Assembly (NCBI GenBank): GCA_027449865.1
Contig: DAIDKV010000208.1
Coordinates: 1 to 49,090 of the forward strand
Source: Planctomycetales bacterium
GTDB lineage: Bacteria; Planctomycetota; Planctomycetia; Isosphaerales; Isosphaeraceae
Direction: 5' to 3'
Length of the DNA: 49,090 nt
How positions within the stretch are numbered: position 1 is the first letter of the stretch; each line of letters opens with the position of its first letter. The translations under genes and the position numbers were made by a program. Positions 8,207 through 23,150 of this stretch are shown piece by piece. The notes below the pieces were generated by a model, which saw only the letters and a program-made list of their open reading frames with translations, searched no databases and was not told the origin of the DNA.

Positions 8207-10771
8207 ATGCGATCTTTCGTCCGCCCGCTCGCCGCGCTCGTCTCGACCGTGAGCGTGTCCCTTCTGGCCGGCGCGGCCACCGCGGCCGACCTCGACGAGG
8301 CCGAAGCCCTTTTCCGCGCCGGCAAATATGATGAGTGCGCCCGCGCCGCCGCCGCGGAACTCGCCGGGTTCAACGGATGGGACGAGCGTTGGCGTCTCCT
8401 CAAGATCGCCTCCGAGATGCAGCGCGGCCGGTACGGGGCGGCGATGGAGACAGTTGAGGTCTCGTTCCGGCACCTGCACTCCAGTATCCCGCTCCGACTG
8501 GTCGCCCGCGATGTCTACCGGTTCAACGGCCGGGACGACGAGATCCCTCGGCTCATGTCGAACCTCGAGCGGATCGTGATGGGCTCGCCACAGCGGTTCG
8601 CCACTCCGGAAGGGCTGGTGGCCCTCGGCCGATACTTCCTGCTGGTCGGGCAGGACTCGCGGAAGGTCCTCGACCTTTTCTTCGACCCGGCCATCAAGCG
8701 CCAGCCCGACCTGCTCGACGGGTACCATGCGATTGCGGAGCTTGCCCTGGCGAAACAGGATTTCGCGCTGGCCGCCGAAACGCTCCGCAAGGCCCCGAAG
8801 AAGTCCGCGACGGAAGACCCCTACTATCATTACCTGCTCGCCCGGGCCTATGCCTCCGACGATCGCCCGGCCGCCGGCAAGGAACTGGCCGAGGCCCTGA
8901 AGCTCAACCCTCACCATGTCGACAGCCTGATCCTGGCCGCTGATCGCCTGGTCGAGGACGAGAAGTACGACGAGGCGGCGAGACTGCTGGCGAAGGTGCA
9001 CGAGGTCAATCCGCACGAGCCCAGGGCTTTCGCCTATCAAGCCGTTCTGGCGCACCTGCGGAGCGATCCGGCCGGCGAGGCCGAGGCGCGCTCGAAGGCC
9101 CTCGGGCACTGGAGCCGCAACCCCGAGGTCGACCACATCATCGGCCGCGAGCTCTCTCAGAAATACCGGTTTGCCGAGGGCTCCGCCTACCAGCGGAAGT
9201 CGCTTGAGTTTGACCCGTCCTACCAGCCCGCCCGATTGCAGCTCTGCCAGGATCTGCTCCGGCTCGGTGAGGAGTCCGAAGGCTGGAAGCTCGCCGCCGA
9301 CGTCGTTACTAGCGATCCCTACAATGTCGTCGCTTTCAACCTGTCGACTCTCCACGATCGACTCGGCGGGTTCCGGACGCTTGAGGCCGATGGCCTGATT
9401 GTCCGGATGGACCCGCGCGAGGCGGATCTCTACGGGCGTCGCGTGGTCGATCTGCTCGTCCGGGCCCGAAAGACGCTCGCCGATCGTTACGGCGCGACGC
9501 CGCCACGTCCCGTGGTTGTGGAAATCTTCCCCCAGCGTAAGGAATTCGCCGTCCGGACGTTCGGCCTCCCGGGTGCTGACGGCTTGCTCGGCGTCTGTTT
9601 CGGACGGGTGATCACGGCGAATAGCCCGGCCAGCCAGGGTGAACACCCCACAAACTGGGAGTCGGTTCTCTGGCACGAGTTCTGCCACGTGATCACGCTG
9701 AGCAAAACCCACAACAAGATGCCCAGGTGGCTCAGCGAGGGGATCTCGGTCCACGAGGAGGAGCGCGCCGACCCCTCCTGGGCAACGCCGATGAGCCCGA
9801 AGTTCCGGGCAAAGCTCCTCAGCCCAGACCTCACGCCGATGAGCCAGCTCAGCGCGGCCTTCCTGAACGCCAAGTCGTCCCTCGACCTGCAATTCGCGTA
9901 TTACGAATCGACGATGGCCGTCGCCTTCCTGATGGAGCGGATCGGCGTCGAGGGGATGCGCAGCCTCCTTGACGACCTGGGAGCCGGCGTCTTGATGAAC
10001 GAGGCGCTGCCGCGTCGGGCAAAAATGTCGCTGAAGGAACTGGATGACCAGTTCACGCGATACGCCCGCGATCGCGCGGGCGCCGGAATCTCCAACGTCA
10101 CCTGGGAAGAAGCCGACCTGCCGCCGAACGCCGATTCAACCGCCATCGAGACCTGGCTCCAGAAGCATCCGAAAAGCTTCCACGGCCACCGACTCCTGGC
10201 CGCCCGTCTGATCGCGGAAGGAAAGCTGACCCGGGCGAAGTCGGAAATCGAGGCGCTGAAGTTGATGGACCCGGCTTACGTCGGGCCGGAGAACGCCTAC
10301 ATGTTACAGGCCACCCTCGCCCGGAAAGAGTCGGACCCAGCCGCCGAGCGACGGGCGCTGGAGGAACTGGTCGGGCGCGACGGCAGCGCCAGCCCGGCCT
10401 ATCTGCGGCTCCTGGAGCTGGAAGAATCGGCCCGGAACTGGAAGGCCCTCGCCCGGGACGCCGACCGAATGCTCGCGATCAACCCTCTGATCCCGGCACC
10501 GCATCGAGCGATGGCCCTCGCCTCGGAGGAGCTGGGCTCGCTCGACGTCGCGATCGACGCGTTCCGGGCCGTCTCGCTTCTCGACGACTCCGACCCGGCC
10601 GGCCTCCACTACCGGATGGCCCGGCTCCTGGCGCGGCGGGGACGTCGCAACGAGGCCCGGCGCGAGGCGTTGAAATCGCTCGAAGAGGCTCCTCGATTCC
10701 TCGACGCTCACAAGCTCCTGCTCGAACTGGTCGAATCCCCCACTGAGGGACAGCGAGGCCCGGCCCAATGA
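8207..10771 (+). CDS. Exported TPR protein with gluzincin (peptidase MA-like) domain
   Basis: Protein of 854 residues. A signal peptide spans about residues 1–27 (hydrophobic core LAALVSTVSVSLLAGAATAA). TPR-like helical repeats follow from about 28 to 410, and a metalloprotease domain contains LWHEFCHVITL with the zinc motif HEFCH at residues 490–494. Some 20 residues later comes WLSEGISVHEEE, the third-ligand Glu region typical of gluzincins of the peptidase MA family. More TPR repeats run from about 645 to the end. The catalytic Glu491 is present, so it may be an active periplasmic protease, though no substrate is known. Its stop overlaps the next gene start (ATGA), tying it translationally to the DUF4159–MoxR genes. 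A promoter candidate lies at 8087–8117. Confidence 0.85.
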   Translation: MRSFVRPLAALVSTVSVSLLAGAATAADLDEAEALFRAGKYDECARAAAAELAGFNGWDERWRLLKIASEMQRGRYGAAMETVEVSFRHLHSSIPLRLVARDVYRFNGRDDEIPRLMSNLERIVMGSPQRFATPEGLVALGRYFLLVGQDSRKVLDLFFDPAIKRQPDLLDGYHAIAELALAKQDFALAAETLRKAPKKSATEDPYYHYLLARAYASDDRPAAGKELAEALKLNPHHVDSLILAADRLVEDEKYDEAARLLAKVHEVNPHEPRAFAYQAVLAHLRSDPAGEAEARSKALGHWSRNPEVDHIIGRELSQKYRFAEGSAYQRKSLEFDPSYQPARLQLCQDLLRLGEESEGWKLAADVVTSDPYNVVAFNLSTLHDRLGGFRTLEADGLIVRMDPREADLYGRRVVDLLVRARKTLADRYGATPPRPVVVEIFPQRKEFAVRTFGLPGADGLLGVCFGRVITANSPASQGEHPTNWESVLWHEFCHVITLSKTHNKMPRWLSEGISVHEEERADPSWATPMSPKFRAKLLSPDLTPMSQLSAAFLNAKSSLDLQFAYYESTMAVAFLMERIGVEGMRSLLDDLGAGVLMNEALPRRAKMSLKELDDQFTRYARDRAGAGISNVTWEEADLPPNADSTAIETWLQKHPKSFHGHRLLAARLIAEGKLTRAKSEIEALKLMDPAYVGPENAYMLQATLARKESDPAAERRALEELVGRDGSASPAYLRLLELEESARNWKALARDADRMLAINPLIPAPHRAMALASEELGSLDVAIDAFRAVSLLDDSDPAGLHYRMARLLARRGRRNEARREALKSLEEAPRFLDAHKLLLELVESPTEGQRGPAQ

Positions 10772-11637
10772 AGCGTCGACGCGCGACTCTGCTGGCAGTC
10801 CTGATTCTGTTCGCCCTCGTTTCCGGCATTGCGGTCGCCCAGCGCTACGGGCGAGGCCGAGGTGGTTGGGGCAGGCGATTCCCCGGCCAGATCCCGGCCG
10901 ATCGCGCCGGCGTCCCCGACTGGAAGGTCGACCCGCGGTTCCCACACGACATCTTCACCTTCGTCCGGGTCCAGTACGACTCCGGAGACGGTGGTCACGG
11001 CCGTCGGGGCTGGGGCGGCGGCTGGGCCACCGACTTCCCCGATAGCGACCTCAATTTCTCTTACCGGCTCCAGCAGTTGACCTCCATGAAGGTCAATCCC
11101 AACCCGATCAGCCTCCGCCTGACCGACCCTAAACTGTTCGACTATCCGTTCCTCTACATGATCGAGCCCGGCGAGCTCGAATTCTCCGAGGAGGAGGTCG
11201 TCTCGCTCCGTCGCTATCTGCTCAATGGCGGCTTCCTGATGGTTGACGACTTCTGGGGCGACGAGTACGAAAACTTCCACGAGCAGATGAGGCGCGTCTT
11301 CCCCGAGCCCGACCAGGAGCCGACCGAACTCGACGTGTCTCACGAGATCTTCCACTGCGTTTATCAGCTCAGGGAGAAACCTCAAGTTCCGAGTATCCAC
11401 TCCTGGCTCCAGACCGGCGAAACCTGGGAGCCCTGGCACGGCGGCGACCCGAAGACCGTCCATTACAAGGGCATCTTCGACAACAAGAAGCGGATGATGG
11501 TTCTGATCTGCCACAACACCGACCTCGGCGACGGCTGGGAACGCGAGGGCGAGAGCGAGGACTACTTCCGAGAGTTCTCCGAGAAGAAGTCGTACCCGAT
11601 GGGCATCAACATCGTCACGTACGCCATGACGCACTAG
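10768..11637 (+). CDS. DUF4159 domain protein, exported
   Basis: Protein of 289 residues with a signal peptide (basic MKRRR, hydrophobic LLAVLILFALVSGIAVA, then a Gly/Arg-rich segment). The body contains FTFVRVQYDSGDGG, a DLNFSYRLQQLT segment and a LNGGFLMVDDFWGDEY segment typical of DUF4159, a domain of glutamine-amidotransferase-like fold often encoded next to MoxR/DUF58/BatA genes. No catalytic Cys–His–Glu triad is obvious, so it is more likely a binding than an enzymatic domain. The start overlaps the previous stop by four bases. The function is unknown; the neighbourhood suggests a periplasmic component of the MoxR/vWA system. Confidence 0.85.
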   Translation: MKRRRATLLAVLILFALVSGIAVAQRYGRGRGGWGRRFPGQIPADRAGVPDWKVDPRFPHDIFTFVRVQYDSGDGGHGRRGWGGGWATDFPDSDLNFSYRLQQLTSMKVNPNPISLRLTDPKLFDYPFLYMIEPGELEFSEEEVVSLRRYLLNGGFLMVDDFWGDEYENFHEQMRRVFPEPDQEPTELDVSHEIFHCVYQLREKPQVPSIHSWLQTGETWEPWHGGDPKTVHYKGIFDNKKRMMVLICHNTDLGDGWEREGESEDYFREFSEKKSYPMGINIVTYAMTH

Positions 11638-11698: not shown

Positions 11699-12697
11699 AT
11701 GACCGACGAATATGAAGAAGAGAAGCAGGTCGTCGAGAAGATCCACGAGAGCCGAGGTCGGATCGACCACGAGTTATCGAAGGTGATCGTCGGGCAGAAA
11801 GAGGTTTCGCAGCAGCTTTTGATCAGCCTGTTCGCCGGTGGACACTGCCTGATCACCGGGGCGCCCGGCCTGGCGAAGACGCTCCTCGTCCGTTCAATCG
11901 CTCAGGTCTTCGAGCTAAAATTCCAGCGCATCCAGTTCACGCCCGACCTGATGCCAGCCGACATCACCGGGACCGAGATCCTTGAGGAGACGACCGAGGG
12001 CCGGCGCCGGATGGTCTTCGTCAAGGGACCGATCTTCGCCAACGTGATCCTCGCCGACGAGATCAACCGGACTCCGCCCAAGACCCAGGCCGCGCTCCTC
12101 GAAGCGATGCAGGAGCACCAGGTCACGGCGGCCGGAGTCCGATACCCGCTGGAGGAGCCGTTTTTCGTCCTGGCGACCCAGAACCCGATCGAGATGGAGG
12201 GAACTTACCCCCTCCCCGAGGCTCAGCTCGACCGGTTCCTCTTCAACGTCGTGATTGACTACCTGCCCGAGGACGACGAGGTTGCCGTGGTCCGTCAGAC
12301 GACCTCAAAGAAGCCCGAGCCGATCGTCCCGCTCTTCGACGGTAAGGACGTTGTCGCCTTCCACGAGGTCGTCCGCCGCGTCCCGGTCGCCGAGGAGTTG
12401 ATCCGACATGCCGTTCGCCTGGCCTCGGCGACGCGTCCCGCCCCCGATGCCCCCTCGTTTATCAACGAGTGGGTTACCTGGGGCGCGGGTCTTCGCGCGG
12501 CGCAGTCGCTGATCCTCGGTGCCAAGGCCCGGGCCCTGCTCGGAGGCCGGTTCCACGTCGCCCCCGAGGATCTGACGGCCCTGATTCACCCGACGTTTCG
12601 CCACCGCGTTTTGCTCGGATACCGGGCCGAGGCCGACGGCGTGACCGTCGACCAGGTCATCGATCGCCTGCTCGATCACGTGAAAGGCCCGCTCTGA
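11699..12697 (+). CDS. moxR: MoxR-family AAA+ ATPase
   Basis: Protein of 332 residues, a normal MoxR length. Walker A GAPGLAKT is at residues 54–61, Walker B is VILADEINR, and sensor-1 (LATQNPIEMEGTYPLPEAQ) and the arginine-finger region (LDRFLFNV) follow. The C-terminal lid domain ends the protein. MoxR proteins act as cytoplasmic chaperone-like ATPases for partners containing von Willebrand A domains, and three such candidates follow directly (DUF58, BatA-type and a second vWA protein). The stop codon overlaps the next ATG (TGATG). The start at 11699 is the first ATG of the frame, just after an inverted repeat. Confidence 0.95.
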   Translation: MTDEYEEEKQVVEKIHESRGRIDHELSKVIVGQKEVSQQLLISLFAGGHCLITGAPGLAKTLLVRSIAQVFELKFQRIQFTPDLMPADITGTEILEETTEGRRRMVFVKGPIFANVILADEINRTPPKTQAALLEAMQEHQVTAAGVRYPLEEPFFVLATQNPIEMEGTYPLPEAQLDRFLFNVVIDYLPEDDEVAVVRQTTSKKPEPIVPLFDGKDVVAFHEVVRRVPVAEELIRHAVRLASATRPAPDAPSFINEWVTWGAGLRAAQSLILGAKARALLGGRFHVAPEDLTALIHPTFRHRVLLGYRAEADGVTVDQVIDRLLDHVKGPL

Positions 12698-13650
12698 TGG
12701 AGGTCACCTCGCGCACCGATCCGAGAAATCTCATCGATCCGCAGACTCTCATGCGGATCAAGAGTCTGGAGGTGCGCGCGCGGGTGGTTGTCGAGGGTTT
12801 CTTCCGGGGGCTTCACAAAAGTCCGTTTCACGGCTTCTCGGTCGAGTTCAGCGAGTACCGCGCCTACACGCCCGGCGACGATCCTCGCTACCTCGACTGG
12901 AAACTCTACGCTCGCTCCGACCGCTACCACATCAAGCGATTCGAAGACGAGACCAATCTCCGCTGCCAGATCGTCCTCGACACCAGCCGGTCGATGGGAT
13001 ACGGGACAATCGGCTACACCAAGATGGAGTACGCCCGGACCGCCGCGGCGACTCTCGCCTATTTCCTCTCGACCCAGCGCGACGCCTGCGGGCTGATCAC
13101 CTTCGAGGACCGGATCGTCGAGTTCATCCCGGCCCGGTATCGCCCCGGCCACCTCCGCCGGATTCTCGCTGTCCTGGAGCGCGAGCCCACCGGCCGGGCC
13201 ACCGACCTCGCCGGGCCGATCGAGGAGGTCGCCGCGGCCGTCCGGCGGCGTGGACTGATCGTCCTGCTCTCCGATCTCCTTGCCGACGCCTCCTCGCTTC
13301 GAACCCGACTTGGCTATCTCAGGTCGCAGGGGCACGACGTGGTCGTCCTCCGGATCCTCGACCCGGCCGAGGTCGGATTCGCCTTCGAGGCGCCGGCGAT
13401 GTTCCGCGACGTCGAGTCCGGACGCGAGATGTACGTCGATCCCGCCCAGGCCCGCGCCGAATATCGAAGGCGGTTCGACGCCCACGCCGAGGAGATCCGC
13501 CGGGCCTGCCTCGACCTCGGGATCGAATACGAAACGATCACGACTGACCGGCCGCTGGAGCTGGTCCTCTTCGACCTGCTTCGCGCCCGGATGAGGCGAG
13601 GACGCCACCCAGGCCGCCGCGCTGCTTCGCGACGGGGAGGCACCGCATGA
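12697..13650 (+). CDS. DUF58 / vWA-fold protein
   Basis: Protein of 317 residues. The DUF58 signature lies at about residues 55–69 (YRAYTPGDDPRYLDWKLYAR), and a MIDAS-type metal site follows: DTSRSMG at 95–101. The C-terminal half is a vWA-like alpha/beta domain (IVLLSDLLADAS). DUF58 proteins are the standard partner of MoxR and are thought to be remodelled by it. The start at 12697 is chosen because it overlaps the MoxR stop (TGATG) and begins the conserved domain; the frame is open earlier but inside MoxR. It ends with ATGA overlapping the BatA-type gene. Confidence 0.93.
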   Translation: MEVTSRTDPRNLIDPQTLMRIKSLEVRARVVVEGFFRGLHKSPFHGFSVEFSEYRAYTPGDDPRYLDWKLYARSDRYHIKRFEDETNLRCQIVLDTSRSMGYGTIGYTKMEYARTAAATLAYFLSTQRDACGLITFEDRIVEFIPARYRPGHLRRILAVLEREPTGRATDLAGPIEEVAAAVRRRGLIVLLSDLLADASSLRTRLGYLRSQGHDVVVLRILDPAEVGFAFEAPAMFRDVESGREMYVDPAQARAEYRRRFDAHAEEIRRACLDLGIEYETITTDRPLELVLFDLLRARMRRGRHPGRRAASRRGGTA

Positions 13651-15740
13651 GCGCCCTGACCCCGCTCTACCTGCTCGGCGTGCTGGCGGTCGCCGCACCC
13701 ATTGTCTTCCACCTGATCCGACGATCACCGAGCGGCCAGATTCCCTTCAGCTCACTCCTGTTTTTAACCCCCTCGCCGCCGAGGCTCGCGCGTCGGAGCC
13801 GGCTCGATAACATCCTACTCCTGATCCTGCGCGCCTCGGTCCTCTGCCTGCTGGCCTTCGCCTTCGCCCGGCCTTTTCTGCGGCAGAAGGCCGAGTGGAA
13901 CGTCGGCGAGAACGAGACGCGTCGACGGACAGCCGTCCTCATCGACACCAGCGCCAGCCTGCGCCGGGGTAATCTGTGGGACCGAGCCCGCGCCGAGGCC
14001 CGCCGCGCCCTCGGCGAAACGGGTCCGACCGATGAGATCGCGCTGCTCGCCTTCGACCGATCGACCCGCCCCGTTGTCACCTTCCGAGAGTCGTCCCAGA
14101 TGGAAGCTGGCCGCCGCCAGGCCCTCGCGCTCGCCCGTCTGGACGAACTGAAGCCGTCGTGGAACGGCACTGACCTCGGCCGGGCCCTCATCGACGCCGT
14201 CGCCGCGATCGAGGACATCGCCGACCCGAGTGAATCGGCCGGGCGGATACCAAGGCGGATCGTTCTCGTGACGGACCTCCAGCGCGGGAGCCGGCTGGAA
14301 TCACTCGGCGAATTCGAGTGGCCGAAGGATGTCGAGCTGATCGTCCGAGCGGTCACCGACGACGCCTCGAACGCAGGATTGCAGCGCCTCGCCGATCCGA
14401 CCGAGGGCGACCGCGAGCCGAGGATTCGCGTCATCAACGACGGCGGATCGCGCAGGGAGCGATTCCGCCTTCGATGGCTCGGCGTCGAGGGCAAGCCGAT
14501 CGGCGAGCCGGTCGACGCTTACGTCCCGCCCGGTGAGAGTCGGGTCGTCCGGATGCCGCGTCCCAAGGAGCCTGCTTCGGCCCGATCGATCGTGCTGGAA
14601 GGCGACGGGAGACCATTCGACAACACGCTCCACGTCGCTGATGAGCCTCAACAGGAAGTCATCGTGCTCTTCCTCGGCGACGACCGCGCCGATGATCCCG
14701 AGGGCCTGCTCTACTACCTCGATCGCGTCTTCCTCGATACACCGAGACGGACCGTCCGGGTCGTGGCGCAGGCCCCATCCGCGCCGATCGCGATCGACCC
14801 AGCTCACCCGGTCCCCCTGGCGATCGTCGCCGCCGAGGTTCCGTCCGAGCAGGCCCGTCGGCTCCGCGACCTCGCCCGATCCGGCTCGACAATCCTCGAC
14901 GTCGCGACCCGACCCAGTCGCGGTCAAACCCTCGCGACACTCCTCGACGTCCCGGCTCGTCCGATCGAGGAATCCCGATCGCGAGAGGCTCTAATTGGTG
15001 AGATCGCCTTCGATCATCCGATCTTCGCCCCGTTCGCTCCGCCTCAGTTTCGCGACTTTACGAAAATCCATTTCTGGAAGCACCGGAAGCTCCATGCCGA
15101 TTCACTCGCCGGCGCCCGGATCCTGGCCCGGTTCGACGATGGCGACCCGGCCGTCGCGGAACGCCCGATCGAGAAGGGTAGCGTGATCGTTCTGACCTCC
15201 GGCTGGAGCCGATCGGATAGCCAGCTCGCTCGATCGTCAAAGTTTGTCCCGATGATGATGGCCATGCTCGACCGACGCGATCCCCGCGCATTCGCGGATG
15301 AGGAACACCTGGTCGGCGACTCGATCAAACTTCCCGCCACGCGGGGGATGACGATCCGGAAGCCGTCGGGCGCCTCGATCTCGATCCCGTCTGACGCCTC
15401 GGTCTTCGACCAGGCGGACGAGCCGGGGATCTACACCTTTGAACTCGCGGACGGACCGCGATCGATCGCCGTGAACCTCGACCCCGCCGAGAGCCGGACC
15501 GAGCCGATTGGAATCGAGACCCTGGAGCAATATGGATGCCGGCTGGCGAAGCCGGCCCACGAGCCGATCGATCGTGAGCAACTCCGGCAGTTGCAAAACG
15601 CCGAGCTGGAGGGACGTCAAAAACTCTGGCGCTGGCTGATCCTGACGGCTGTCGGGATTCTGATCGTCGAGACTGGCCTGGCGGGGCGCGGGCGTCGCGT
15701 CCTCGCGGGCGAAACCGGAGCGGGAGGGCCTTCGTCATGA
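13647..15740 (+). CDS. BatA-domain and vWA membrane protein
   Basis: Protein of 697 residues. The N-terminal BatA domain has two membrane segments, about residues 6–23 and 55–77 (SRLDNILLLILRASVLCLLAFAFARPF in part). A vWA domain follows with MIDAS DTSAS (100–104), then a long periplasmic region, and a C-terminal membrane helix at about 664–683 (LWRWLILTAVGILIVETGL). BatA-type proteins are aerotolerance-related membrane partners of MoxR in Bacteroidetes; in planctomycetes they occur in operons like this one with unknown role. Start and stop overlap the neighbours by four bases each. The protein likely presents its vWA domain to partners at the inner membrane. Confidence 0.9.
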   Translation: MSALTPLYLLGVLAVAAPIVFHLIRRSPSGQIPFSSLLFLTPSPPRLARRSRLDNILLLILRASVLCLLAFAFARPFLRQKAEWNVGENETRRRTAVLIDTSASLRRGNLWDRARAEARRALGETGPTDEIALLAFDRSTRPVVTFRESSQMEAGRRQALALARLDELKPSWNGTDLGRALIDAVAAIEDIADPSESAGRIPRRIVLVTDLQRGSRLESLGEFEWPKDVELIVRAVTDDASNAGLQRLADPTEGDREPRIRVINDGGSRRERFRLRWLGVEGKPIGEPVDAYVPPGESRVVRMPRPKEPASARSIVLEGDGRPFDNTLHVADEPQQEVIVLFLGDDRADDPEGLLYYLDRVFLDTPRRTVRVVAQAPSAPIAIDPAHPVPLAIVAAEVPSEQARRLRDLARSGSTILDVATRPSRGQTLATLLDVPARPIEESRSREALIGEIAFDHPIFAPFAPPQFRDFTKIHFWKHRKLHADSLAGARILARFDDGDPAVAERPIEKGSVIVLTSGWSRSDSQLARSSKFVPMMMAMLDRRDPRAFADEEHLVGDSIKLPATRGMTIRKPSGASISIPSDASVFDQADEPGIYTFELADGPRSIAVNLDPAESRTEPIGIETLEQYGCRLAKPAHEPIDREQLRQLQNAELEGRQKLWRWLILTAVGILIVETGLAGRGRRVLAGETGAGGPSS

Positions 15741-18700
15741 GCGGCAGGCTGAAAGAGGCGCTCGAACAGGTCGCGCGACGGTTCCGGCGAGTTCGGCTCT
15801 GGGGCGGTCTGGCCGCCTGCTGGCTCGTCCTGGCGATCGTTGGACTGGCCCTCGCGCGGATGGGCTTCTGGAAGATCCCACCGCAGTGGACCCCGCCCAC
15901 TCTGGCCCTTCTCGCGATGATGCTCGGGCTCTCCTGCGCGTTGGCCGCCATCCGGAGTGCCCGCGATCCTCGGTGGGTTGCTCGCCGGATCGAATCGCAC
16001 CACCCAGACCTCGGCACCGAACTCCTCGCCGCCGTCGAGCAGGTCGAGTCGGCACCCGACGGCCGCCTCGGCTTCCTGCAATCCTCGGTCGTCCGCGAGG
16101 CCCTCGAACACCGCGAATCGCACGACTGGGATCAGACCGTCCCAGGCTGGCAGCTCGTCCTGGTGAAGGTCGTGCACGCCTTCTGTCTAGCGTTCCTGAT
16201 GATCGTCCTGGTGAACCTCACGCTCCAGTCACAGTCCGCCGCCCGAGGCTCCGCCAACCCGAGAATCGCCGATGCCTCCGAGGTCTCGGTCGAGCCGGGT
16301 GACGTCGAGCTCGAGCGCGGGACAGCGTTGCTGGTCGTCGCCCGGTTCCACGGCGAACCCCCGCCCGACGCCGCACTTGTCCTGGATGGCGATCCAGGCG
16401 AGATCCCACGACGGCCAATGACCCGCGCCCTCGAAGACCCGACCTTCGCCGGCCGGGTCGAGTCGGTCCAGGCCGACCTCTCCTATCACGTCGCCTTCGG
16501 CGACCGGACCACACCTGAGTTCCACGTTCGCGTCTTCGAGTACCCCGAGCTGAAACGGGCCGATGCCCACCTCGACTTCCCCGCCTACACCGGGCTCAAG
16601 CCGAAGCTCGTGGAAGATATCCGACACGTCACGGCCGTCGAGGGAACCACACTGACCCTCATCTGCCGCCTGAACAAGGAGGTCGCCAAGGCAACCCTCG
16701 TCGACAAGGACGGCGCCTCCGTCCCGCTCGTCCGTGACGAATCACCGTCGCCCATCTACAAAGCCTCGTTTAAGCTCGAAGAGTCGCGGAAGTTGACCGT
16801 CAGGCTGGTCGACCGCGAGGGACGATCCAATCCCGAAGAGCCGCAGATCACGATCCATGTCACCCGGAACAAACCGCCGACGGTAAGGGTCACGCGTCCC
16901 TCGCACGACGTCGACGTCTCACCGCTGGAGGAACTCCAACTCGCCGCAACGATGGAGGACGACTTCGGCCTTGTCCGCCAGGGACTCAGCTACGCGATCG
17001 GCGGCGACGTCCCGAAGGAGATCGTCCTCGGCTCGCATCCCGACTCGGCTCGCCCGCTCCGTGCCGAGGCCTCGCACATGCTCGCCCTGGAATCGATGAA
17101 GGCCGTCCCCGATCAGCTTGTCTCCTACTTCTTCTGGGCCGAGGACATCGGCCCCGACGGCCAACTCCGACGCACCGCGGGCGACATGTTCTTCGCCGAG
17201 GTCCGGCCGTTCGAGGAGATCTTCCGCCAGGGCGAGCAGCCCTCCAGCTCGGCCCAGATGCAGGACCAGAACGGCAATGCGCAACGGGCCGAGCAACTCG
17301 CCGAACTCCAGAAGCAGATCATCAACGCTACATGGAAGGTCATACGGCGGGAGACCCGTCCCAAGCCGACCGAGACGTTCGTCGAGGATGTGAAAACCCT
17401 TCGAGACTCGCAGAAGGCCGTGCTCGAACAGGCTAGCCCGCTCGGTGATCGGCTCCGCGATTCGGCCTCGAAGGCCGCGCTGGCGCAGGCCCTCGACTCG
17501 ATGAGAAAAGCCCACGACGAGCTCGGCCAGGCCGCCACCGGCCCCGATGCCAAGAAGCTCATGCCCTCGCTCGCCGCCGAGCAAAACGCCTACCAGTCTC
17601 TTCTGAGGCTTCGCGCCCGAGAGTCGCAGGTCGTCCGGAGTCGGTCCCGGCAAAACCAGAGCAGCCGAAGCTCGTCGAGCCGTTCGCGTCGGCAGCTTGA
17701 CCAACTCGAACTGGCTCCTGACGAGAACCGCTTCGAGGAACAGCGGAGCGCCCAGTCGCAGCAGGAGCAGACCCGTCGCGAACAGGAGCAGGCTGAGAAC
17801 CGGCAAGTCCTCAACCGCCTCCGCGAGCTTGCCCAGCGTCAGAAGGATCTGAACGAGCGGCTGAAGGAACTACAAGCGGCCCTCGAGGCCGCGAAGACCC
17901 AGCAGGCCCGCGAGGAATGGAAGCGACAGCTTCAGCGGCTCCGCGACCAGCAGGAAGAGATCCTCCGCGACACCGACGAACTCCGCCAGCGGATGGAGCA
18001 GGAACAAAACCAGGAGCGAATGGCCGAGGCCCGGCAACAGCTCGAACAGGGGCGCGAGAACCTTCAGCAGGCCTCGCGAGCCCTCGAACAGGGTAATCTC
18101 CCGCAGGCCCAGACCGCTGGTGCCCGCGCCGGCCAGCAACTCGAAGACCTTCGCGAGAAGGTCCGAAAACAGAACGCCAACCAGTTCGCCCAGGAGATGA
18201 CCCAGCTTCGGAACGAGACGCGCAAGCTCGACAACGACCAGAAAAAGATCAACGACCAACTGGACGCCTGGGAGAAGAAACCCGAGCGATCGCTCCGCGA
18301 ATCCGACGACCGCCGCCAGCTCCGCCAGGCCGCCGACGACCAGAAAAAGAAGCTCGACCAGGTTCTCGACCGGATGCGCGCGACTACCCAGCAGGCCGAG
18401 GACTCCGAGCCACTCCTCGCCCGAGGACTGTATGACGCCGTTCGACAATCGAACGAGCAGCACATCCCCGAAGCACTCGACGCCACCCGACAGTTCGTCG
18501 ACGCCGGCTTCCCCGATCAGGCCAACCGCACCGGCCGCCAGGCCGGCGAGGGACTCGAACAGCTCCGACAAAACGTCGAGCGCGCCGCAGACTCGGTCCT
18601 CGGCGACGAGACTGCCGCCCTCCGTCGCGCCCGGAACGAACTGGACGACCTTGCCAATCAGGTGAACCGAGAGATCGCTCAAAATCAGAACCGCGCCAAT

Positions 18701-19702
18701 CCCCAGTCCCGCCGCGAACCGGGCGAGCCAGGCGCGACGAACGAACCCAACACCCGCGGAAATCGCGCGAACGAACCCAACGCGGAGGACCGTCGTTCGG
18801 GTAATCCGCAAGATCGGCAGGCCGATCAGCCCAGAGAGACGAACGCAAATCGCGCGAACGAACCCAACGCGGGAGGCCGGCGCCCGGACAATCAACAGAA
18901 TCCGCAACAGGGCCAGCAACCCGGCGCCGGAGAGCGACAGGACGGGAACGCAAATCGCGAGAACGAACCCAACGCGGGACCTCGCAATCCCAACGATCGA
19001 CAAGCTCAGCAACCTCGACCAGGTGAGGCAGGGAACGCCCCCGCAAATCGCGCGAACGAACCCAACGCCGACTCCCAGAACCCAGGCAATCGGCAAGGTC
19101 AACAGAACCGGCCCGGTGAAGGTCAGCGAGACGGACAACCCGGCGACCAGCGTGGCCAGGGCCAACCGGGCGGTCAGCAACCCAACGGCGGACGCCAGGG
19201 GGGCGGCGGCAACCGAGGCGGGCTCGATCTCGACCGGATCGCCCAGGCGATGCGACAGGAAGGCCCCGCCGGTCCAGGAGGGCCGGGCGGTCCGATCACC
19301 GGCGAAGGATTCCGCCAGTGGTCCGACCGGATGCGCGACGTCGAGGAGTTGATCGAGGATCCCGAGTGGCGCGCCGAGGCCGCCCGCATCCGAGATCGTG
19401 TTCGGGGCGCCCGCGAGGAAGTCCGCCGACACTCCCGAGAACCCGACTGGAACAAGCTTCAAAATCTGGTCACCCGGCCGATCAATGAGCTTCGGCAAAA
19501 GCTCGGCGAGGAGCTCGCCCGCCGAGAGTCGCCCGACTCGCTCGTCCCGATCGACCGCGACCCCGTCCCGCCCCAGTACGCCGAGGGCGTCCGCCGCTAT
19601 TACGAGCGTCTCTCCGCCCTCCAGGGGCGTACCAGCGACCCGACAAAAACCCCGAAGCCAGCCACGGATAACGAACAACGGACAGCGGACCCAAAGAAAT
19701 GA
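15737..19702 (+). CDS. Giant membrane-anchored coiled-coil protein (DUF4175-like)
   Basis: Protein of 1321 residues. Membrane segments lie at about 22–42, 54–72 and 139–160. A periplasmic beta-rich part follows to about 510, containing DUF4175-like sequence (HVTRNKPPTVRVTRPSHDVD). A long Gln/Glu/Arg coiled coil runs from about 515 to 980 (repeated RQKDLNERLKELQAALEAAK-type heptads). After that comes a low-complexity Asn/Gln/Pro/Gly tail of about 980–1170 with repeated NRANEPNA units, then a small charged C-terminal helical domain. The family is typically found beside MoxR/DUF58/BatA genes. The extended coiled coil and flexible tail suggest a structural or tethering role in the cell envelope. 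The start and stop both overlap neighbouring genes by four bases. Confidence 0.8.
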   Translation: MSGRLKEALEQVARRFRRVRLWGGLAACWLVLAIVGLALARMGFWKIPPQWTPPTLALLAMMLGLSCALAAIRSARDPRWVARRIESHHPDLGTELLAAVEQVESAPDGRLGFLQSSVVREALEHRESHDWDQTVPGWQLVLVKVVHAFCLAFLMIVLVNLTLQSQSAARGSANPRIADASEVSVEPGDVELERGTALLVVARFHGEPPPDAALVLDGDPGEIPRRPMTRALEDPTFAGRVESVQADLSYHVAFGDRTTPEFHVRVFEYPELKRADAHLDFPAYTGLKPKLVEDIRHVTAVEGTTLTLICRLNKEVAKATLVDKDGASVPLVRDESPSPIYKASFKLEESRKLTVRLVDREGRSNPEEPQITIHVTRNKPPTVRVTRPSHDVDVSPLEELQLAATMEDDFGLVRQGLSYAIGGDVPKEIVLGSHPDSARPLRAEASHMLALESMKAVPDQLVSYFFWAEDIGPDGQLRRTAGDMFFAEVRPFEEIFRQGEQPSSSAQMQDQNGNAQRAEQLAELQKQIINATWKVIRRETRPKPTETFVEDVKTLRDSQKAVLEQASPLGDRLRDSASKAALAQALDSMRKAHDELGQAATGPDAKKLMPSLAAEQNAYQSLLRLRARESQVVRSRSRQNQSSRSSSSRSRRQLDQLELAPDENRFEEQRSAQSQQEQTRREQEQAENRQVLNRLRELAQRQKDLNERLKELQAALEAAKTQQAREEWKRQLQRLRDQQEEILRDTDELRQRMEQEQNQERMAEARQQLEQGRENLQQASRALEQGNLPQAQTAGARAGQQLEDLREKVRKQNANQFAQEMTQLRNETRKLDNDQKKINDQLDAWEKKPERSLRESDDRRQLRQAADDQKKKLDQVLDRMRATTQQAEDSEPLLARGLYDAVRQSNEQHIPEALDATRQFVDAGFPDQANRTGRQAGEGLEQLRQNVERAADSVLGDETAALRRARNELDDLANQVNREIAQNQNRANPQSRREPGEPGATNEPNTRGNRANEPNAEDRRSGNPQDRQADQPRETNANRANEPNAGGRRPDNQQNPQQGQQPGAGERQDGNANRENEPNAGPRNPNDRQAQQPRPGEAGNAPANRANEPNADSQNPGNRQGQQNRPGEGQRDGQPGDQRGQGQPGGQQPNGGRQGGGGNRGGLDLDRIAQAMRQEGPAGPGGPGGPITGEGFRQWSDRMRDVEELIEDPEWRAEAARIRDRVRGAREEVRRHSREPDWNKLQNLVTRPINELRQKLGEELARRESPDSLVPIDRDPVPPQYAEGVRRYYERLSALQGRTSDPTKTPKPATDNEQRTADPKK
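18761..19068 (+). repeat. Degenerate tandem repeat coding for NRANEPNA units
   Basis: Near-identical copies of AATCGCGCGAACGAACCCAA begin at 18761, 18848, 18953 (one base changed) and 19046, spaced 87, 105 and 93 bases, all multiples of three. A shorter, diverged version lies near 18737. The units encode Asn-Arg-(Ala/Glu)-Asn-Glu-Pro-Asn-Ala inside the Gln/Asn-rich tail, so the repeat is kept in frame while its spacers vary. Confidence 0.85.
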
Positions 19703-22047
19703 CGACTCTTGTCTGGGGCTCGCCTCAATGGTTCGTGACGGTGGGAGCGATCGCGGTGATCGCCGCACTCCTGCTGGTCTGGAGCTACACGCGCGCCCCA
19801 GGGCGTCCGGCGATCCGCCTGCTCGCCGCGTCTCTCAAAATGGCTGGCTTCCTGGCACTTCTGATCTGCCTGGTCGAACCGATGCTCGCCGGGCGAAAAC
19901 CCCGGCGAGGCGCCAATGCCTTCGTGGTCCTCGCCGATAACAGCCAGAGCATGACGATCCGCGATGGCGAGAGATCATCCAGCAGGGGCGACTGGCTCCG
20001 CGATCGGCTCGTCAAGGAGAACGTCTGGAAGACCCGGCTCGAACAGGACTTCGACGTCCGCCGATACACCTTCGATTCCAACCTCCGCGCCGTCGACCAA
20101 TTCGAGGGGCTCGCCTTCGACGGAGTCGGCTCGTCGATCGCGACCTCCCTGAACGCGCTGGCGAAACGGTTCCGCGGCCTGCCGATCGCCGGCGTCCTGG
20201 TCTTCACCGACGGACTTCACACCGACACCGCCGAGATCCCTCCGGCCGGCCTCCCGCCCATCTTCCCTGTGATCCCGCCCTCACCCGGCCGCGCACGCGA
20301 CATAGCCGTTCGAGGGGTCTCGGTCACGGCGACCAACTTCGAGGCCGCGCCCGTGGTCGTTCGGGCGGATGTGGTCGCGACCGGTTATCGAGGCCAGTCG
20401 ATCGTCTCGATCGTCACCGACGAATCGGGCCGCGAACTCGGGCGCGAGGTGGCCCAGGCGTCCGCCGACGGTCAGCCGATCGCGTTCCGGTTCCAGTTCC
20501 GCCCGGAAAAGCCCGGCCTCGGCTTTTACCGTGTTCGAGCCTTCGCCGCCGACGCCGAGCAATCCGCCGAGGGCGTCGAGCAGAACCTCGTCCGCGGCGA
20601 GCAGACCGGCGCCAATAACAGCCGCCTGATCGTCGTCGACCAGGGAGGCGGCCCGTATCGCGTCCTCTACGTCAGTGGACGGCCCGACCCCGAATTCAAG
20701 TTCCTCCGCCGGGCGCTCGAAGAGGACGAGCAGGTTCAACTCGTCGGCCTGATCCGGATCGCCCGCAAGCAGCCGAAGTTCGACTTCCAGAGCAAGGGAA
20801 ATCGCACCAGCCGGTTCTATGAAGGCTTCAATCTCGACGACCCCGACCTCGCCGAGCGCGCTGATCAACCCGTTCTCGTCCGCCTCGGCACCCGAGACGC
20901 CGACGAACTCCGCGACGGCTTCCCCCGATCGGCCGAGGAACTCGACTCGTACCACGCGATGATCCTCGACGACCTGGAGTCCTCGTTCTTCACGCCCGAC
21001 CAACTTGCCCTCCTCCGGAACTTCGTCGCCCATCGCGGAGGTGGATTCCTGATGCTCGGCGGTCCCGACTCGTTCGCGGAAGGCCGATACGACCGGACCC
21101 CCATCGGCGACCTGCTCCCAGTTTACCTCGACCGGACCACGACCGCCGAATCCGAGGCCGAGCGCCGGCTCGTCCTGACCCGAGAGGGAGAACTCCAGCC
21201 CTGGGTGCGCCTCCGGAAGACCGAGGACGAGGAGGCCAAACGGCTCGCCGGGATGCCCGGTTTCCGAACCGTTAGCGCCTCGCGCGGGATCAAACCGGGG
21301 GCGGTCACGCTGGCGGAAGCTCGCGACCCCTCCGGCCAATCGCTCCCCGCGCTCGTCGCCCAGCCCTTCGGCAAGGGCCGGGTTGGAGCGCTCCTGGTCG
21401 GTGGCCTCTGGCGATGGGGCCTGCACCGCGACGACCCGTCCACGAGCGACCTCGAACGCTCCTGGCGACAGACCGTCCGATGGCTCGTCGGTGACGTTCC
21501 CCGCCGCGTCGAGATCTTCGCGAGGCCAAAGGAAGGCGCCTCCTCGCCAACGGTCGATCTTCGCGTCCGCGTCCGCGACGCCGAGTATCGCCCGCTCGAC
21601 AACGCCCATGTCGCCCTTTCGGTCATGCTCCCCGACGGCCGTTCGCTCGCGATCGATGCCGAGCCCGAGAGCCGTGAACCCGGCACCTATGCCGCCTCTT
21701 ATGTCGCCCGAGAACCCGGCCCCTACCGAGTGACCGCGACGGCTACCGGTCCTGAGGGTGCTGAGGTCGGTCGAAGCGAGACCGGATGGGCCGCCCAACC
21801 CGCCGCCGATGAGTTCGCCCAACTGGAACCCAACCGCGACTGGCTCGCCGAACTCGCCCGAAAGACCGGCGGCGAACTCGTGGACGGCGACCGCCTCCCC
21901 GCATTCGTCGCCAGCCTCGCCTCTCGTGACGCACCCATCCAGGAGCCCTGGGTGGCCCCAATCTGGCACCAGCCGCTTTACTTCCTGATCGCGATCGTCT
22001 GTCTCGCCGCCGAATGGGGGATCCGTCGCGTTCACGGCCTCCCCTGA
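19699..22047 (+). CDS. Membrane vWA protein with amidotransferase-like fold
   Basis: Protein of 782 residues. N-terminal membrane helices lie at about 11–30 and 42–62, then a vWA domain with MIDAS-type DNSQSM (80–85) and TDGLHTD. A second alpha/beta domain has LRNFVAHRGGGFLMLGGPDS, which resembles the class I glutamine amidotransferase-like domain found in planctomycete vWA proteins; the nucleophilic Cys is not present at the expected elbow. A C-terminal helix (WHQPLYFLIAIVCLAAEWG, about 755–775) returns to the membrane. It starts inside the previous gene's stop (ATGA). With the BatA-type protein it forms a pair of membrane vWA proteins, probably acting as one complex. Confidence 0.85.
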   Translation: MTTLVWGSPQWFVTVGAIAVIAALLLVWSYTRAPGRPAIRLLAASLKMAGFLALLICLVEPMLAGRKPRRGANAFVVLADNSQSMTIRDGERSSSRGDWLRDRLVKENVWKTRLEQDFDVRRYTFDSNLRAVDQFEGLAFDGVGSSIATSLNALAKRFRGLPIAGVLVFTDGLHTDTAEIPPAGLPPIFPVIPPSPGRARDIAVRGVSVTATNFEAAPVVVRADVVATGYRGQSIVSIVTDESGRELGREVAQASADGQPIAFRFQFRPEKPGLGFYRVRAFAADAEQSAEGVEQNLVRGEQTGANNSRLIVVDQGGGPYRVLYVSGRPDPEFKFLRRALEEDEQVQLVGLIRIARKQPKFDFQSKGNRTSRFYEGFNLDDPDLAERADQPVLVRLGTRDADELRDGFPRSAEELDSYHAMILDDLESSFFTPDQLALLRNFVAHRGGGFLMLGGPDSFAEGRYDRTPIGDLLPVYLDRTTTAESEAERRLVLTREGELQPWVRLRKTEDEEAKRLAGMPGFRTVSASRGIKPGAVTLAEARDPSGQSLPALVAQPFGKGRVGALLVGGLWRWGLHRDDPSTSDLERSWRQTVRWLVGDVPRRVEIFARPKEGASSPTVDLRVRVRDAEYRPLDNAHVALSVMLPDGRSLAIDAEPESREPGTYAASYVAREPGPYRVTATATGPEGAEVGRSETGWAAQPAADEFAQLEPNRDWLAELARKTGGELVDGDRLPAFVASLASRDAPIQEPWVAPIWHQPLYFLIAIVCLAAEWGIRRVHGLP

Positions 22048-22160: not shown

Positions 22161-23150
22161 ATGCCATCTACAATGATCCCTTTCCTGATCAGCTTCGCGA
22201 TCGCGTCTCCGCCGATCACCGACCGCCCCTCGGTGGTGATTGCGATCGGTGCCCCAGGCGTGCCGGAGTACGCATCCGCCTTCCGTGCCGCGGCCGATCG
22301 CTGGAAGACGGCCGCCTTGAAGGGGGGTGCCGAGGCGGTCGTCATCGGCGAGGGAACCGCGTCGACTGGACCATCCGACCACGACCGGCTCCGCGAAGCC
22401 ATCTCGGCGAGAGCGGTCGGATCGAAGGAGCCGCTCTGGATCGTCCTGATCGGCCACGGCACCTTCGACGGCAAGGAGGCGAAGTTCAATCTACGAGGGC
22501 CGGATGTCTCCGACGCGGAGATGGCGGACTGGCTCAAGCCGGTGCAGCGCCCGCTCGCACTTCTCAACGGCTCGTCCGCCAGTTCCCCGTTCTTGAGTCG
22601 ACTCTCAGCGCCGGGACGTATCCTCGTCACCGCGACGCGGAGCGGCAGCGAGAGCAGTTACGCCCGCTTCGGCCTGGCCCTTGCCGAGACCATCGCCGAC
22701 CCTGCCGCCGATCTCGACAAGGACGGCCAGACCTCGCTGCTCGAGGCTTACCTCGCAGCCAGCCACCGCGTCGACGAGTTCTACCGGACCCGGTCTCGAC
22801 TGGCGACCGAGCATCCCCTGCTCGACGACAATGGCGACCGCCTCGGCACACCTCCCGACTGGTTCCGTGGCGTCCGCGCTACCCGAGGGGCCCGCGATGG
22901 TGCCCCGGTCGACGGCCTCCGGGCTCATCAACTCCACCTGGTCCCCAGCGACCGAGAACGCCGGCTCCCCGCGGAAGTCCGCCGGCATCGCGACGAACTG
23001 GAGCTAGCTCTCGCCGCCATCCGGAATCGCAAGAGCCAGATGCCGGAAGACGACTATTACCGTCAGATCGAGCCGATCCTGCTGGAACTCGGCCGACTCT
23101 ACCGCGAGGCGGAGTCGGTCACCAGGAAGGAGACCGAAGGAGAAAAGTGA
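22161..23150 (+). CDS. Caspase-fold (C13-like) protein without catalytic Cys, with an EF-hand loop
   Basis: Protein of 329 residues. The first residues are hydrophobic (MIPFLISFAIA) and may be a weak signal or anchor. A caspase-like alpha/beta domain contains PLWIVLIGHGTFDGK with His99 in the expected GHG position. The next strand, where clan-CD proteases place the catalytic Cys, reads LALLNGSSASSPFL, with only Ser residues. A canonical 12-residue EF-hand calcium loop follows at 184–195 (DLDKDGQTSLLE). The C-terminus is charged and helical. The best reading is an inactive caspase/legumain-fold protein with a calcium-binding insert. It closes the vWA cluster after an A/T-rich gap. An alternative start is the second Met (22173). 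The stop lies one base from the convergent tRNA-Phe. Confidence 0.7.
   Translation: MPSTMIPFLISFAIASPPITDRPSVVIAIGAPGVPEYASAFRAAADRWKTAALKGGAEAVVIGEGTASTGPSDHDRLREAISARAVGSKEPLWIVLIGHGTFDGKEAKFNLRGPDVSDAEMADWLKPVQRPLALLNGSSASSPFLSRLSAPGRILVTATRSGSESSYARFGLALAETIADPAADLDKDGQTSLLEAYLAASHRVDEFYRTRSRLATEHPLLDDNGDRLGTPPDWFRGVRATRGARDGAPVDGLRAHQLHLVPSDRERRLPAEVRRHRDELELALAAIRNRKSQMPEDDYYRQIEPILLELGRLYREAESVTRKETEGEK

Follow-up and report, generated by a model that had tools for sequence, protein, structure and literature searches.

A predicted legumain-like pseudoprotease with a conserved calcium-type loop at the end of a Bat-like MoxR-vWA operon

Inactive clan CD proteins of bacteria have been described as pseudo-orthocaspases, in which Ser stands for the catalytic Cys and Tyr for the catalytic His, and an EF-hand motif occurs in some archaeal orthocaspases, seven of which are mentioned (Klemencic et al. 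2019, PMC6426788); the words Planctomycetes and Verrucomicrobia are absent from the main text of that paper. Inactive caspase domains are also common in the MoxR-vWA ternary conflict systems, where about 70% of the caspase domains in effector position are inactive; they were interpreted as modules that bind peptides or act in a dominant-negative way (Kaur et al. 2020, PMC7159879). MoxR and vWA proteins are further encoded by the Bat (Bacteroides aerotolerance) operons, the function of which is unsettled, a deletion in Leptospira biflexa having given no oxidative-stress phenotype (PMC3557215). The protein described here shares features with all of these. What is already known are inactive clan CD proteins and, in a small number of archaeal orthocaspases, EF-hand motifs (PMC6426788), while the combination of a kept His, a family-wide Cys-to-Ser replacement, a calcium loop and a fixed operon is new.

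The gene was identified on a stretch of 49,090 nucleotides from a Planctomycetales bacterium (contig DAIDKV010000208.1), hereafter the window. The open reading frame at 22161-23150 (forward strand, stop codon included) starts with ATG, encodes 329 amino acids and was judged to be a real gene; comparison with two congeners gave a dN/dS of 0.18, which indicates purifying selection. No additional copy was found in its own genome. Searches with the protein against Pfam, NCBIfam, PADLOC and PDB sequences assigned no family, with no match to Pfam PF01650 (C13) at the cut-off and none to PF00656 (caspase C14); a Peptidase_C13 match below threshold was obtained for 6 of 75 orthologues. The orthologues were collected from genomes of the host family and phylum and from 80 loci on GTDB contigs, and 117 distinct sequences (group I) form the basis of all per-residue counts. 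Residues 1-20 (22161-22220) make up a hydrophobic stretch, resembling a signal peptide by eye and modelled with low pLDDT, from which it follows that the protein is probably exported.

The initial annotation of this gene proposed a caspase fold. AlphaFold2, supplied with an alignment of 75 sequences, produced a model with a pLDDT of 90.7 and a pTM of 0.89, for which Foldseek returned MALT1, legumain, caspases and metacaspases. The ranking by VIA-align was headed by legumains (Z 18.2; 191 residues aligned with an rmsd of 2.6 and 15% identity); metacaspase-4 (Z 17.5) and procaspase-7 (Z 15.0) scored lower. The model shows the alpha-beta fold of legumains and caspases that active C13 proteases have, followed by a C-terminal helical hairpin (residues 271-328, 22971-23144). 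A clan CD fold is predicted, as had been proposed, with legumain (C13) rather than caspase (C14) as the nearest family.

The gene closes an operon with the order MoxR, DUF58, BatA/vWA, DUF4175, GATase/vWA and pseudoprotease, all on the forward strand. Domain matches and related loci support the MoxR AAA+ ATPase (11699-12697), the BatA-type vWA protein (13647-15740) and the DUF4175 protein (15737-19702). The DUF58 open reading frame (12469-13650) overlaps MoxR, and its true start is probably located further in than 12469. The direct upstream partner (19699-22047), assigned by domain match, synteny and co-occurrence, carries GATase1-like, Ig-like and weak vWA domains. By eye, its GATase1-like domain appears to be without the usual class I Cys elbow, and the operon may for this reason contain two degenerate hydrolase folds. 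Before MoxR, on the same strand, a TPR/Peptidase_MA_2 protein (8207-10771) and a DUF4159 protein (10768-11637) are encoded, which are possibly cotranscribed with the operon.

Synteny in 80 related loci confirmed the earlier statement that the gene terminates a MoxR/vWA cluster, and showed the operon to be conserved in Planctomycetes and Verrucomicrobia, including adjacency to the MoxR, DUF58 and BatA genes. The GATase/vWA gene precedes the pseudoprotease gene in 74 of these loci; four of the other six are located no more than 220 bases from a contig end, while L094 and L135 are not. When distant homologues were included (86 loci), the median gap to the upstream gene was 28 bases, and in 20 loci the start overlapped that gene by at least 4 bases. 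Both genes were present in 23 of 45 family genomes and both absent from 21 (Fisher p 6e-12, kinship ignored); in the single discordant genome only the pseudoprotease gene is present, at the edge of a contig. The protein is shown by these data to be a near-obligate neighbour of the MoxR-vWA operon. MoxR, DUF58 and the BatA-type vWA protein occur in the same order in Bat operons, to which the operon of the window adds DUF4175, the GATase/vWA protein and the pseudoprotease. MoxR and vWA partners are likewise shared with the ternary conflict systems; those systems, however, are patchy and have their caspase domains fused to vWA proteins (PMC7159879, in the text of which DUF58 is not mentioned), whereas here a separate, probably exported protein ends a conserved Bat-like operon. 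The PADLOC search for defence systems gave no match apart from weak MoxR hits.

The GHG motif reported earlier is present at residues 98-100 (22452-22460) and places H99 at the position of the catalytic His, which in active C13 proteases stands before a glycine; H99 is invariant (117/117). At the place where the catalytic Cys is expected, Ser139 (TCC, 22575-22577) is found within LNGS-S-ASS. BLASTP paired this residue with the Cys of two distant homologues, L182 (NPCHSGGF) and L146 (HSACGSDGF), in alignments that are gapless from position 137 to 144. L146 scores above the Pfam C13 cut-off (28.6 vs 22.8), and phmmer matched the CHSGG of L182 to the CHSGG of metacaspase-4. The register in which a Ser had been assigned to the catalytic Cys position was right, residue 139 being the nucleophile position of the Cys-bearing relatives. 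The expected Ser or Ala was also found at this position in most orthologues (103 Ser, 11 Ala, 2 Pro, 1 Gly, no Cys), and the tree requires no fewer than 10 changes between these four residues. In the protein of the window there is no Cys in all 329 residues. As judged from these alignments, the protein is inactive by the usual criterion, the Cys of active C13 proteases having given way to Ser139 or, in some orthologues, to Ala, Pro or Gly. Legumains are the best structural match and have the same order of His and nucleophile, but the protein differs from them by the missing catalytic Cys, by the absence of a charged S1-pocket residue two positions before it, by its calcium-type loop and by the lack of a Pfam match. 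With the pseudo-orthocaspases it has in common that Ser replaces Cys; their Tyr-Ser pair is absent, however, since His is kept invariant throughout the family, and the fold is nearer to C13.

A 'perfect' EF-hand loop had been reported at residues 184-195 (DLDKDGQTSLLE, 22710-22745). The ligands D184, D186, D188, S192 and E195, at loop positions 1, 3, 5, 9 and 12, are each present in 117 of 117 orthologues, and the loop is as conserved as its calcium-binding interpretation called for. When the protein was shuffled 20,000 times, a relaxed EF-loop pattern appeared by chance in 27 cases. The word 'perfect' was not borne out: PROSITE PS00018, in the form of the pattern used here, failed because loop position 8 is T and position 13 is A, and it matched 3 of the 117 orthologues. 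In the AlphaFold2 model the loop leads into a helix (193-210) but is preceded by just three helical residues (181-183), and the paired helix-loop-helix of an EF-hand is absent. Weak EF-hand matches below the Pfam threshold were seen in other members of the orthologue set as well. The loop is better described as a calcium loop of the Dx[DN]xDG type with a helix on its exit side. It resembles the loops surveyed under that name (PMC3123361), here with a DLDKDG motif and Ser and Glu as ligands; caspase and legumain are absent from the survey text, and gingipain is included only for its adhesin domain. In the literature searched, no earlier description of a calcium-type loop on a clan CD fold was found, and for EF-hand loops on legumain- or caspase-like bacterial proteins only the seven archaeal orthocaspases were retrieved.

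A second acidic loop follows strand 6 at residues 216-230 (TEHPLLDDNGDRLGT, 22806-22850), with E217, D223 and D226 in 117 of 117 orthologues. It is common to groups II and III and to L182. Its stretch TEHxLLDDNGD is conserved as strongly as loop 184-195, and it is a possible second calcium site. Unchanged in all 117 sequences are, besides H99 and the acidic and ligand residues named for the two loops, also S141. Mean entropy was lowest in the calcium loop (0.34 bits), followed by residues 216-230 (0.52) and the cleft (0.65, for segments of our own choice), compared with 1.74 for the remaining domain. A dead enzyme without a purpose is not expected to keep its cleft, and something is presumably bound in it. 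The invariance of H99 is odd in a dead enzyme and could point to remaining chemistry.

Taken together, the protein is probably best explained as an exported, catalytically dead, calcium-stabilised legumain-like protein whose cleft accommodates a partner from the MoxR-vWA system; a role as a binding component of the operon machine is more likely than an enzymatic one. The DLDKDGQTSLLE loop would bind one calcium ion and fix the helix after it, and one or two ions would be bound in all, chiefly for stability. The former substrate cleft, still under strong selection, would bind its peptide or protein partner but leave it uncut. This partner would be part of a complex of the MoxR, DUF58, BatA, DUF4175 and GATase/vWA proteins, whose genes lie immediately upstream, and the ATPase and vWA parts of that complex would load or release it. 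The nearest precedent for such a cleft-binding role is given by the inactive caspase domains of the other MoxR-vWA systems (PMC7159879). A Cys-bearing C13 protein was considered as a possible pairing partner, and PF01650 found no match in any of 41 host-family genomes.

The protein could instead still be an enzyme, a serine hydrolase with the fold of legumain in which Ser139 is the nucleophile and acts with His99. This agrees with the presence of H99 in all and of S139 in 103 of the 117 sequences and with the cleft being the most conserved part apart from the acidic loops, but it is quite unlikely, since Ala, Pro or Gly is found at 139 in 14 orthologues scattered on the tree, the site being otherwise unaltered in them, and the S1-pocket residue is also gone. 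Moreover, Cys-to-Ser swaps are generally inactivating in clan CD proteases. The initial annotation had also named a Cys elsewhere, completing a Cys-His dyad, as evidence against an inactive family, and this objection holds by half, as a Cys does exist at residue 137 in 64 of the 117 orthologues. These could be active through a displaced nucleophile, with the protein of the window, which has Gly137 (GGC, 22569-22571), as a recent dead copy. The at least 14 switches between Cys and other residues at 137 (on a tree that includes five group II paralogues) may be counted in favour, together with one weak, non-significant hhalign comparison of the family with a single human legumain sequence (approximate), which set the legumain Cys on 137 and was regarded as uninformative. 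Against it, the gapless BLASTP alignments give 139 as the nucleophile, and position 137 corresponds to a residue of the S1 pocket, which includes Gln184 of caspase-7 and Asp462 of MALT1 (PMC4357240). Cys at 137 is exchanged freely with Thr (37 of 117), Ala, Gly, Ser and Asn (53 for the five together), as would be expected if the pocket is no longer selected for specificity. In caspase-7 and MALT1 the catalytic Cys lies two positions after this pocket residue, as 139 follows 137 in the orthologue alignment; on this alignment, residue 137 is the S1-pocket equivalent and is reduced to a small residue in the protein of the window. His, loops and cleft are, in addition, the same in Cys137 members and in the others. 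A displaced nucleophile is accordingly very improbable. A variant with Cys137 as nucleophile and repeated loss of catalysis was dropped, the Cys-bearing relatives setting the nucleophile at 139. The fold and the His would also suit an ordinary, active protease of the caspase or legumain kind; with no Cys in the protein and no orthologue with Cys at the nucleophile position, that reading is refuted for the protein of the window and retains hardly any credence.

As to the calcium, the initial annotation had suggested a calcium-controlled scaffold or sensor, and a rise in calcium could alter the shape of the protein and trigger the MoxR-vWA machine. The ligand set is full and invariant, and activation by calcium is seen elsewhere in clan CD, for example in metacaspases and gingipain R (PMC4357240). 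The model, however, contains a single loop without a paired EF-hand or a long entering helix. The loop is also found in the Cys-bearing relatives L182, L183, L184, L189 and L191; it therefore predates the loss of Cys, and an invariant loop common to such relatives is no less compatible with a structural site than with a sensor. The periplasm, where the protein presumably resides, is usually rich in calcium. A switch is thus rather unlikely, and, as far as the sequences indicate, a structural role of calcium in a binding protein is more likely.

The preferred reading, that of a dead, calcium-stabilised binding protein, has an evolutionary side. The same operon slot is filled by distant homologues in L146-L148, and within this slot Cys is kept by L146 and L150-L152. 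On a small tree the Cys at 139 requires at least two changes, and several losses or one loss with one regain fit equally well. In two proteins of the slot (L151, L152), Cys139 is kept and the calcium loop is lost (AGQAGGKRPIGLLD, ATPPGGTNGVNLLD), the reverse of the window, and L158, L180 and L181 are without both. Members of a second homologous group (L140-L143) directly adjoin a different MoxR-DUF58 pair in related genomes; they have Ser or Pro at 139 and mostly retain the calcium loop. A protein of 740 amino acids (L193:1102-3321) carries an LDDNGDG stretch and carboxypeptidase-regulatory-like domains, with no clear GHG or Cys.

Bat-type MoxR-vWA operons are widespread, and an obligate last gene, whose product has retained the cleft of a protease without its nucleophile, offers a handle on their function, namely the question of what occupies the cleft. 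The natural series within one operon slot, from the Cys-bearing L146 and L150-L152 to inactive members, makes the change from a protease to a binding part traceable. It is possible, though tentative at present, that across the family the calcium-stabilised pseudoprotease serves a Bat-like MoxR-vWA machine of Planctomycetes and Verrucomicrobia as an exported subunit dedicated to client binding. The pseudoprotease would then descend from an active protease, a form still found in this operon slot in some relatives.
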